From Microbacterium dextranolyticum (GTDB taxonomy: Bacteria > Actinomycetota > Actinomycetes > Actinomycetales > Microbacteriaceae): a stretch of DNA of 64,000 nucleotides. Positions 47,277-49,415 of this stretch are shown here, one piece after another. Under the pieces are notes generated by a model. It was given only the letters and a program-made list of their open reading frames with translations. It had not been told where the DNA came from and made no database searches. Numbering within the stretch: position 1 is the first letter of the stretch; every line of letters begins with the position of its first letter. A program made the position numbers and the translations under genes. The stretch spans positions 2,418,001 to 2,482,000 of the forward strand of contig NZ_JAFBBR010000001.1 in the NCBI RefSeq assembly GCF_016907295.1, written 5' to 3'.

Positions 47277-48028
47277 ATGACCCGGAAACCGTCTCGTCGT
47301 CGCCGTCTCGTCCTATGGATCGTCGGCGTCCTCGGTGGCTTGGTGGTCGCCGCGATCGCCGGCATCCTCGTCTGGAGCCAGGTCGGCGTCATGACGGCGG
47401 AGCCGGAGCCGCTCGCGGCCGTTCGGGCGGACGCCGCGATCGCGATCACGGACGATGCCGCGGTCATCGTGCTCGCCCCTTCCGCGGGGGGAGGCGATGC
47501 GGGACTCGTCTTCATCCCGGGGGCGAAGGTCGACCCGTGGGCCTACGCGTCGATGCTGGCCGGGTTGGTCGCGGATGACGGCATGACCGTCGTCATCACC
47601 AAGCCGTGGCTGAACCTGGCGTTCTTCGATCTCCGGCCGCTGTCGAGCTTCACCGACCTCGCCCCCGGACCGACCGGTGGCTCGTGGGCGGGCATTCGCT
47701 CGGGGGTGTGCGCGCCTGCCAGCTCTCTTCCGACGCGGACGGTCTCGTGCTGTTCGCCTCGTACTGCGCGAGCGACATCTCGGGATCGCGCCTTCCGGTG
47801 CTGAGCATCTCCGGGTCGGAGGACGGCCTGTCGACTCCGCAGAAGGTCGCGGACGCGCGCGGCATGCTCCCCGCGGACGCCGTCCTGGTCGAGATTCCCG
47901 GCGCGTCGCACGCGTCGTTCGGGGCCTACGGCCCGCAGGCCGGTGACGGTGTCGCCTCGATCCCGGACACGGACGTCGACGCCGTCGTGACCGCACGGGT
48001 CGGCGAGCTCGCCACCACCCTGCACTGA
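47277..48028 (+). pseudogene. alpha/beta hydrolase split by a frameshift
   Basis: The first part (47277 to about 47666) encodes a membrane-anchored N-terminus and the start of an alpha/beta hydrolase (AGLVFIPGAKVDPWAYASM … VITKPWLNLAFFDLRPLSSF). The second part continues in another frame with TDRWLVGGHSLGGVRACQLS, which holds the nucleophile Ser of GHSLGG, then PVLSISGSEDGLSTP and the His in GASHASFG. One extra C in the C5 run at 47662-47666 would join both frames into a normal ~250-residue protein. So this is a one-base deletion, a sequencing error or a programmed slip. TAAACT lies 6 nt before the ATG, so the promoter looks intact. Substrate unknown. Confidence 0.8.
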
Positions 48029-48066: not shown

Positions 48067-48153
48067 GGTCCACAACTCCGGATAATCCGCATCCGTCCCG
48101 CCGCCACGGCCCCCTCCCCCGCGAACGGCCACAGAACTCCGGAGTTGTGAACC
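48067..48153. repeat. ~87-bp palindromic element, copy E1
   Basis: Left arm GGTCCACAACTCCGGATAAT and right arm CCACAGAACTCCGGAGTTGT are inverted copies around AACTCCGGAGTT (full 12-bp palindrome at 48135-48146). Total 87 bp. It lies with E2 in the 438-bp gap before the AbiEi-DUF559 gene. Confidence 0.8.
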
Positions 48154-48273
48154 ACCCGGCCGCTCCACGACCCTGGATCCCCGGCCCGGACACCGCCGCG
48201 CTCCGCGCACCCACGTCCAGCCGGGTCCCGCCGATCTCGCCCGCCACGCCCTTTCTCCCTCTGGCCCGACGCC

Positions 48274-48361
48274 GGGTCACAACTCCGGAGAAATCGCACA
48301 CAAACCGTGCCGCGGCCTTCTCCCGCCGCGGGAGACCACAGGAACTCCGGAGTCGTGAACC
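48274..48361. repeat. ~87-bp palindromic element, copy E2
   Basis: 88 bp with the same arm design as E1: GGGTCACAACTCCGGAGAAA on the left and CCACAGGAACTCCGGAGTCG on the right. The middle is different in sequence but also GC-rich and hairpin-prone. It lies 105 bp before the start of the nuclease-like gene. Confidence 0.8.
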
Positions 48362-48466
48362 GCGGACTCTCCCATCCCCCCCTCCCCAGGTCCCGCAGAA
48401 CGGTGGTTGTCCCCGATCGGCGGATTCCGGTGCCGCGCCACAGTGCGGCCGCGGCAACCTTGCCGC

Positions 48467-49360
48467 ATGCGTCGTCCCGCTCCGTACCATCGGCTCCTCC
48501 CCACCGGTGTCCCGATCTCCCTCCTGCACCGCGCGGATCTGCGCGCCACCGGCGCCACCGGACGCCAGATCACCGACGCGGTGCGCGACGGACGGCTCCT
48601 CCGCCTCCGGCGCGATCGCTATCTTCCTGCCGGCGCGCACCCGACGGTATGCGCCGCGGCGAGGTGGGGCGGCCGCGTGGACTGCGTCTCCGTGCTGCAG
48701 CTGTTCGGCGTCTTCGTGCGTGAGACGGGCAGCCTCCACGTCCAGATGGCACCGGATGCCTCGAGGGTCCCCCGGCCTGACGATGCGGCCCAGGTCATCC
48801 GCCACTGGAGGACGAGCCGTGCCGCCGCGGACGCCACCCTGGCGCCCCTCGATGAGGCGCTCCTCGCGGCGGTGCGCTGTCAACGTCCCCGCGACGCCAT
48901 CGCGACCCTCGACAGCGCGTGGCACCTCGGGGTGGTCGACGAGGCGCGACTGAACGAGCTCTTCGCTCGGTTGCCGCGACGGTACCGCTCGCTGCGTCGC
49001 CTACTGGACAGACGCGCCGAGTCGGGCACAGAGACGCTCGTCCGTCTGATGCTCCGCGCGATCGGGTGCGGCATCGAACTCCAGGTCTCCATCGACGGGG
49101 TGGGCCGTGTCGACCTACTCGTCGACGCGTGGCTCCTCATCGAATGCGACAGCGAGGCGCACCATGGCACCTGGCAGGACCATAAACGCGACCGCCGGCG
49201 GGACGCCGCCGCCGTCGCGCTCGGCTACACCCCGCTCCGACTGCTCGCTGAGGACATCCTGTACCGCCCCGAGTGGGTGGCGGACCTGCTGCGGCGCACG
49301 ATCGCGACCGGGCCCGCCGGCCGCCGCGCGTTCGGTTCTCCGGAAAAACGGGCTCGCTGA
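48467..49360 (+). CDS. AbiEi-like winged helix plus DUF559 (Vsr-fold) nuclease-like protein
   Basis: 297 residues. N-terminal region ISLLHRADLRATGATGRQITDAVRDGRLLRLRRDRYLPA is the AbiEi-type antitoxin winged helix seen in many actinobacterial proteins. The C-terminal ~100 residues match the DUF559/very-short-patch-repair-like PD-(D/E)xK fold: GRVDLLVDAWLLIECDSEAHH, then RDRRRDAAAVALGYTPLRL. The Asp, the ExD and the later Arg/Asp are present, so the nuclease core looks intact. Start ATG 48467 has CAACCT 6 nt upstream. No partner toxin is adjacent. Its 3' end runs into palindromic element E3, and E1 and E2 precede it. Role unknown; defence or DNA processing is possible. Confidence 0.85.
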   Translation: MRRPAPYHRLLPTGVPISLLHRADLRATGATGRQITDAVRDGRLLRLRRDRYLPAGAHPTVCAAARWGGRVDCVSVLQLFGVFVRETGSLHVQMAPDASRVPRPDDAAQVIRHWRTSRAAADATLAPLDEALLAAVRCQRPRDAIATLDSAWHLGVVDEARLNELFARLPRRYRSLRRLLDRRAESGTETLVRLMLRAIGCGIELQVSIDGVGRVDLLVDAWLLIECDSEAHHGTWQDHKRDRRRDAAAVALGYTPLRLLAEDILYRPEWVADLLRRTIATGPAGRRAFGSPEKRAR

Positions 49361-49415
49361 GCGGCTTTCCGGCATCTCTGGCCGCACTCGAGCAGAAACT
49401 CCGGAGTTGTGAACG
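49331..49415. repeat. ~87-bp palindromic element, copy E3, overlapping the nuclease-like gene end
   Basis: The right arm AGAAACTCCGGAGTTGTGAA (AACTCCGGAGTT at 49397-49408) is complete. The left arm (GGTTCTCCGGAAAAAC, 49331-49346) is degenerate and codes for the last residues of the AbiEi-DUF559 protein. Length about 85 bp, as in E1 and E2. Confidence 0.65.

Follow-up and report, generated by a model that had tools for sequence, protein, structure and literature searches.

A nuclease-like gene bracketed by inverted-arm doublets: a probable gene-palindrome system in Microbacterium

In Microbacterium dextranolyticum, a gene for an AbiEi-like winged-helix protein with a Vsr-like nuclease domain lies among three palindromic doublets. 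Most of its best relatives are likewise bracketed by doublets, and the arm sequences of these differ from gene to gene. The gene and the doublets probably constitute a resident gene-palindrome system, in which the protein reads the paired arms and the doublets make up a family resembling REPINs that is tied to the gene. The locus lies within a window of 64,000 nucleotides, the whole stretch of DNA that was analysed, and its main features are given below in window coordinates. Doublet lengths at the locus are taken from outer edge to outer edge of the 14-base arm motif.

48068..48152, no strand: doublet 1, inverted arms GTCCACAACTCCGG / GTTCACAACTCCGG, 85 bp between motif edges
48275..48360, no strand: doublet 2, inverted arms GGTCACAACTCCGG / GTTCACGACTCCGG, 86 bp, ending 106 bp 5' of the start codon
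48467..49360, + strand: gene for a 297-residue protein, AbiEi-like winged helix in the N-terminal part and Vsr/I-Bth0305I-like nuclease
49330..49414, no strand: doublet 3, right arm GTTCACAACTCCGG and a degenerate left arm, GTTCGGTTCTCCGG, that overlaps the 3' end of the gene, 85 bp

The original prediction described three palindromic elements of nearly equal length, two before the gene and one overlapping its 3' end; these were confirmed, at 85, 86 and 85 bp. Arm complementarity is 94% over 16 nt in doublet 1 and 89% over 18 nt in doublet 2, and the left arm of doublet 3, GTTCGGTTCTCCGG, codes for the final residues of the protein, the stop codon lying at 49358-49360. The middles of the three elements are unlike one another, and comparison of the locus elements bears out the claim that arms and length are kept while the middles differ. 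The arms were further thought to be built on the self-palindromic AACTCCGGAGTT. This holds in some lineages, but many relatives have arms that are not self-palindromic, so that the conserved unit is an inverted arm pair at a fixed distance. At up to two mismatches, TCACAACTCCGGA occurs 58 times in the genome on both strands, against 9 occurrences of a reversed-pattern control. Eight copies are exact: six in doublets of 81-82 bp, one in a rearranged doublet of 106 bp and one as the right arm of doublet 3. Within the window alone, at up to three mismatches, the motif is not enriched (13 matches against a shuffle mean of 17.2), and the argument therefore depends on copies that are paired and nearly exact, and on relatives.

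The gene is genuine: a 70% identical relative has the same neighbours, and structure prediction gives a confident fold (mean pLDDT 92.4). In the window, the gene has an alpha/beta hydrolase and a mannitol dehydrogenase on one side and an adenosine deaminase on the other; the relative also sits between mannitol dehydrogenase and adenosine deaminase. Doublet 1 lies 38 bp 3' of the hydrolase frame. This hydrolase (window 47277-48028) is broken across two reading frames, 47277-47804 holding the start of an Abhydrolase_5 match and 47606-48028 the remainder, and is either frameshifted or mis-sequenced. In the protein, an AbiEi-like winged-helix domain at the N-terminus is followed by a Vsr-like fold with conserved acidic residues, the MTES_1575/DUF559 region covering residues 191-278. 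The nuclease domain is closest to the homing endonuclease I-Bth0305I, NGO0050 and Vsr, and its active-site-like residues are invariant in 60 of 60 sequences. NCBIfam gave no name for the protein and PADLOC only weak partial matches. Carriage by plasmid or phage was rejected, as there was no phage match and only three partial plasmid matches, none of them covering 80%. The window genome contains nine MTES_1575 matches at E<=0.001; matched doublets are clear at none of its five more distant paralogues, L048 and L049 coming closest (joint scores of 35 and 36, obtained by scoring without a null).

Relatives of the gene at E<=1e-30 are present in 101 of 149 genomes of the genus. Ninety loci, drawn from the listed relatives and mostly best matches, were searched up to 350 bp upstream and up to about 310 bp downstream of the gene for inverted pairs of 70-95 bp with at least 12 of 14 bases paired, a threshold that the window's own doublet 3 is too degenerate to pass. 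Doublets were found upstream of 73 of the 90 genes, downstream of 75 and on both sides of 62, compared with 102 of 745 control windows; none was found on 17 upstream and 15 downstream sides. Arm identity is 0.891 between the two sides of one gene (48 genes) and 0.573 between genes. Arms are unlike even between close relatives, and one genome (G080) has two genes with different arms (L076, L145). The genes themselves do not roam, being kept in two conserved chromosomal places: 30 of the 90 loci have window-type neighbours (mannitol dehydrogenase, hydrolase or adenosine deaminase), and 33 have a second common neighbourhood.

The distance between the arms follows the helical turn. Arms were aligned to a common motif, GTnCAnAACTC[CA]GG, and the span of each inward doublet was measured between the outer motif edges. 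All 177 inward doublets with a motif score above 8 (109 from the discovery set and 68 from 51 independent loci) have spans of 74-76, 85-87, 96, 98, 107-108 or 118 bp, forming classes near 75, 86, 97, 108 and 118 bp that lie about one turn apart. The 68 independent doublets, searched over 55-130 bp, have spans of 75-76, 85-87, 96, 98 and 108 bp and none between. Phasing reaches an R of 0.93 at the best period of 11.0 bp and 0.91 at 10.5 bp; the maximum over 2000 uniform draws was 0.287. Of the 64 genes for which a doublet was identified on each side, five have doublets whose spans are about one or two turns apart. The independent loci are less than 95% identical to the first set, 29 of 80 candidates having been left out as at least 95% identical to earlier ones, and come from Microbacterium or Microbacteriaceae records, one of them labelled Actinomycetes. 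The discovery set began as 157 pairs, 140 of which had a complementarity score of at least 11; removal of 21 divergent pairs, which lie between neighbouring doublets, and of 10 inward pairs with a motif score of 8 or less left the 109. The spans of those ten are 42, 76, 76, 76, 78, 78, 91, 125, 130 and 140 bp. In the independent set the motif score removed 33 of 101 pairs, whose spans range irregularly between 55 and 123 bp and include ten at 75, 76 or 85. Pairs failing the motif score do not keep to the span classes, and represent either chance pairs or families with unlike arms.

Between members of 24 close gene pairs, identity is 88% in the arms, 60% in the middles and 62% in the flanks. 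Gaps make up 0.9% of the middles and 4.9% of the flanks, in a comparison that searched permitted spans only and so limits middle gaps by design. These alignments suggest that the length of the middle is under selection and its letters are not. Spans at helical turns and few gaps in the middle are what would be expected from two proteins touching across duplex DNA, and a single-stranded hairpin would not need them. The arms are able to pair; nevertheless cleavage at a hairpin, one of the functions first proposed, is not favoured in Microbacterium, where the helical spacing points to the duplex.

A mutual-information scan of all positions linked a few residues of the protein to bases of the arm. 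Two stretches of the gene are concerned in particular:

48563..48565, + strand: R33 codon; a residue of the predicted recognition helix (32-40) for which covariation with GT at arm positions 0-1 was seen
48746..48772, + strand: codons of residues 94-102 (end of a strand, and a loop), with covariation between residues 94, 97, 99 and 102 and arm positions 10-13

In the predicted structure R33 is near the start of helix 32-40, R49 and R51 are in the wing (44-54), and residues 94-102 form the end of a strand and a loop. GT at arm positions 0-1 is found with R33 in 33 of 46 genes and with other residues in 0 of 30. Similarly, C at position 5 accompanies R or K at residue 49 in 36 of 55 genes (0 of 21 others), and C or T at position 13 accompanies G97 in 24 of 27 (4 of 49 others). 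As the scan itself picked the links and the sister pairs include discovery genes, independent genes provide the only clean test. In these the R33-GT link recurred (16/25 vs 2/19), as did those of R/K49 with C5 (18/30 vs 0/14) and of G97 with position 13 (16/16 vs 0/28); P102 was associated with C at position 11 (30/33 vs 2/11), and G at position 12 with V, L or M at residue 94 (15/24 vs 5/20) and with R or Y at residue 22 (13/17 vs 7/26). For the S99 and R51 links to position 10, two of the eight, the base is invariant in the independent genes.

For all eight links, relatedness was handled by sister pairs alone. Among 60 disjoint pairs, cases in which both partners had changed were concordant rather than discordant by 14:1 at residue 33, 8:0 at 49, 5:0 at 97, 5:1 at 94 and 4:0 at 22, with 16, 13, 7, 14 and 13 one-sided changes, respectively. 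The one-sided changes fell in the arm only or the residue only in ratios of 10/6 (R33-GT), 10/3 (49-C5) and 3/4 (97-position 13). P102 gave 1:0 with 15 one-sided changes, and its link may be one of ancestry. The window protein (R33, R49, M94, D97, P102) and its arm GTTCACAACTCCGG conform to these rules. Arm distance and protein distance are weakly correlated overall (rho 0.13-0.27), and the correlation extends to the nuclease part, as common descent would give.

The doublets are not confined to the gene. The window genome (G000, 3.18 Mb in one contig) holds six further doublets beyond the locus:

G000 267-348, 420066-420147, 890904-890984, 3080364-3080444 and 3166573-3166653: dispersed doublets of 81-82 bp with unlike middles
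G000:C1:3134122-3134227: rearranged doublet (L040) of 106 bp, with an extra inner arm

In the genus, the strict pattern ACAACTCCGGA-N-TCCGGAGTTGT occurs 31 times in 13 of 149 genomes, and all copies are 77-79 bp long though 66-88 bp was allowed. A cognate gene had been fetched from seven of these 13 genomes (L044, L076, L081, L085, L112, L154, L160) and a gene bearing other arms from two (L087, L155); four (G021, G041, G071, G107) have no gene match at E<=1e-30. A second arm type, GCGAAACTCCTGA, has 25 strict elements in 6 of 149 genomes, with a cognate fetched gene in four (L080, L082, L083, L095), a count that covers five of the six genomes, the gene of G016 being left out. G104 carries six GCGAAACTCCTGA doublets and a fetched gene (L103) with CCCGCGCTCCGG arms; this mismatch is either a relic population or the result of a cognate gene missed in a fragmented assembly. 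The third type, GCACAACGTCG, has 44 elements in 8 of 149 genomes, 18 of them in G119 with two at the gene; six genomes have a cognate fetched gene (L097, L098, L102, L108, L110, L116), and in G011 and G031 the gene has other arms.

By a simple gene caller, 71 of 84 doublets are intergenic, against 11.4% of random windows. Once 22 doublets near the gene are excluded, where the caller often missed the nuclease gene, 51 of the remaining 62 are intergenic: 19 between convergent, 24 between co-directional and 7 between divergent genes, and 1 open. Many sites lie just 3' of stop codons. Neighbours of the gene itself aside, only one or two neighbourhoods above 60% identity are common to doublets of different arm types, the rest being distant paralogues, and a conserved regulon was rejected because so few are shared. 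One such neighbourhood is common to L179/L181 (G073, G016) and L206 (G119), with neighbour frames 79-84% identical; the second links L071 with L180 (62%). An early idea of clustering near the replication origin was dropped, the origin not having been located.

The original prediction proposed that gene and repeat could form one REPIN-like system without a RAYT transposase. The spatial link in most of the 90 loci and the gene-specific arms support this, and further support comes from the residue-base code recurring in independent genes, from genome-wide dispersal and from the failure to find a Y1 transposase in 23 of 24 genomes searched, including that of the window. Elements equally common in genomes lacking the gene family and showing no spatial link to it, or acting simply as terminators, had been named as the contrary outcome; elements do occur in the four of 13 genomes that have no gene match, yet the spatial link is strong.

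Copying of the middles is not supported in Microbacterium. Among the middles of the 19 G119 doublets none of 171 pairs scored above the null, showing no homology, and dyad symmetry of the middles is absent for two arm types (z 0.1 and 0.4) and weak at most for the third (z 1.6, inner part 2.1). The clearest local duplication in the genus is at L179 (G073) 1140-1600, where two of three tandem doublets have clearly homologous middles. Occupied and empty sites were compared between G119, whose gene lies in the second neighbourhood with arms GTGCACAACGTCGG, and G031, whose gene lies in the first neighbourhood with other arms; aligned flanks are 87-95% identical. Seven of 14 stretches were resolved (L200, L201, L202, L203, L205, L209, L212). 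At these sites G031 lacks five of the G119 elements, has two with strict arms and one with decayed arms, and shows a single copy in place of a tandem pair. L199, L207, L208 and L210 had no match in the pieces fetched, and L204, L206 and L211 had partial or repeat matches. Neither a clean insertion nor a target duplication was found at the sites compared. The pattern fits dependence on the cognate gene, through gain or loss alike.

The family extends beyond the genus: across the order, 125 of 297 genomes, from 39 of 94 genera, have a match at E<=1e-30. From these matches a subset of 57 homologues outside the genus was examined; in 22 of them the arms on the two sides match better than the 99th percentile of a cross-locus null (about 0.6 such cases expected), and the other 35 do not exceed the null. 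Their arms are mostly unlike AACTCC, and the spans on the two sides are usually equal or within 1 bp. Two genomes carry families of copies: G303 has eight strict copies of 52 bp, two flanking the gene, with none in 15 congeners, and G301 has nine strict copies of 78-79 bp, two flanking the gene; six other genomes, two of which are congeners, have none. In pairwise comparison of the copies, the middles are homologous in 25 of 28 (G303) and 29 of 36 (G301) pairs, scored above the null maximum, and they are dyad-symmetric (z 8.6 and 10.9, respectively, against -0.2 to 2.1 in Microbacterium). Real copying therefore took place in these two genomes.

Bracketing, gene-specific arms, helical phasing, residue-base covariation and dispersal can all be read at the level of sequence. 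In the mechanism we propose, the protein would join a winged-helix DNA reader of AbiEi type to a nuclease of Vsr/EDxHD type, and a pair of monomers would occupy one doublet, one monomer on each inverted arm and both on the same face of the duplex. The outer arm would be read by the recognition helix and wing, and the inner arm by the loop after strand 90-94. The nuclease domains would thereby be positioned over the intervening DNA, where length and phase matter and letters do not. Binding of the arms by the protein is supported by the covariation; direct binding and contact within a dimer are inferred. The doublets flanking the gene would probably serve self-regulation, and autoregulation is plausible. 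Same-arm doublets would be dispersed, mostly between genes, their spread or upkeep depending on the protein, and gene and arms would diverge together within each lineage. Cleavage and nuclease-driven copying are putative; that the nuclease itself drives copying or upkeep of the doublets is the least certain part of the scheme. A wider proposal, held tentatively and at slightly less than even chance, is that these systems are a convergent, RAYT-independent counterpart of the REPtron across an actinobacterial order, in which a paired nuclease spreads or maintains doublets, is recoded together with its sites, and leaves relics upon gene loss or change of specificity.

The strongest alternative, possible though less likely than the system proposed here, is that the doublets are purely operators: autoregulatory sites as in AbiE operons, the dispersed copies being immobile regulatory or decoy sites. 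AbiEi binds two inverted repeats, bends the DNA and represses its own promoter (PMC7319586). A distance of 31-279 bp from the end of the upstream doublet to the start of the protein match would suit an operator, as would the unconserved middles in Microbacterium. Yet downstream doublets are as frequent as upstream ones, only 7 of the 51 intergenic doublets away from the gene lie between divergent genes, no conserved regulon is seen across arm types, and the copies in G301 and G303 are homologous through the middle.

It is improbable that the gene and its two doublets are a homing or transposon cassette with the doublets as ends. The kinship of the nuclease domain to I-Bth0305I, NGO0050 and Vsr and the bracketed layout are what a cassette would show, but the genes keep to two chromosomal places, and plasmid matches are partial and phage matches absent. 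Slightly less probable still is that the doublets are chromosome-organisation sites, the nuclease being secondary. Noc and MatP sites are examples of this kind. Such a role would agree with the number of strict sites per genome (from a handful to about 18), their mostly intergenic positions and arms that are better kept than middles. Against it, the gene is bracketed by its own sites in most loci, the active-site-like residues of the reader's nuclease domain are invariant, and arms differ among close relatives, as is hardly expected of a housekeeping site.

Transcription terminators or mRNA-stability hairpins are very unlikely: pairing arms, sites directly after stop codons and an upstream doublet that could also end the preceding gene (as doublet 1 might the hydrolase) speak for them, and they are disfavoured by the missing T run 3' of the arms in the window, by spans kept to the helical turn and by gene-specific arms that covary with the protein. 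The least likely reading is that these are REPINs moved by an undetected RAYT (Y1) transposase with the nuclease gene as a bystander, for inverted doublets, intergenic dispersal and a vertically inherited gene would fit it, but residues of the nuclease-like protein covary with the arms, and Y1_Tnp (PF01797) was found neither in G000 nor in 22 of 23 other genomes searched (G301 and G303 lay outside that search). The sole Y1 match among the 24 genomes is at G041:C15:20980-21342 (L105).

A resident gene-palindrome system of this kind would matter in several ways. DUF559/MTES_1575 proteins are common, and no assigned role for them was found; one branch would now gain a specific DNA partner. The gene-site pairs would amount to a natural protein-DNA recognition code, and the architecture resembles that of engineered paired nucleases. 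There may also be a second route to REPIN-like elements without HUH transposases, and the persistence of short palindromes in bacterial genomes becomes testable with a different protein. No report of such a system was found in the literature, most subscription journals being outside coverage.

Three known systems invite comparison. A REPIN consists of two REPs in inverted orientation around a diverse spacer, and REPINs are duplicated by RAYTs, which are inherited vertically (PMC8049555). The REPIN-RAYT system, or REPtron, resembles the present one in its inverted doublets, diverse spacers and intergenic dispersal, in its vertically inherited gene and in the occurrence of elements in gene-less genomes (PMC8049555, PMC8266576). 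The dispersed extragenic inverted-repeat doublet characteristic of REPINs is thus found here; the associated Y1 (HUH) transposase is not, its place being taken by a winged helix with a Vsr-like nuclease (MTES_1575/DUF559). Moreover, spans here follow the helical turn, the arm consensus is GTnC and lacks the GTAG of the REP tag, and there are up to 18 strict copies per genome, compared with at least 69 REPINs per E. coli genome (PMC8049555). The operators of AbiEi and Rv2827c, which belong to type IV toxin-antitoxin systems, share the paired inverted-site geometry and the AbiEi-like winged helix. The spacing of their repeats is 3 bp in S. agalactiae and 13 bp at Rv2827c, a 10 bp step of about one turn, and the accessible text makes no mention of bracketing or dispersal (PMC7319586). 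By contrast, no toxin gene or AbiEii (DUF1814) was found adjoining the gene at the window locus, a nuclease domain is fused to the reader, and the sites flank the gene on both sides, are dispersed and have longer spans. Homing endonucleases of the Vsr/EDxHD type such as I-Bth0305I share the Vsr-like fold and its conserved acidic residues; they differ in their DNA reader. A homing gene breaks up its own cleavage site and copies itself into empty alleles; the sites here flank the gene intact and are not interrupted by it, and the genes stay in conserved places. The system is therefore classed as REPIN-like, with a reader of AbiEi type and a Vsr-like nuclease joined in one protein. It would work in the manner of REPIN-RAYT and of AbiEi operators, and departs in one defining feature from each. 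The joint change of protein and sites between species points to an apparently undescribed gene-palindrome system.
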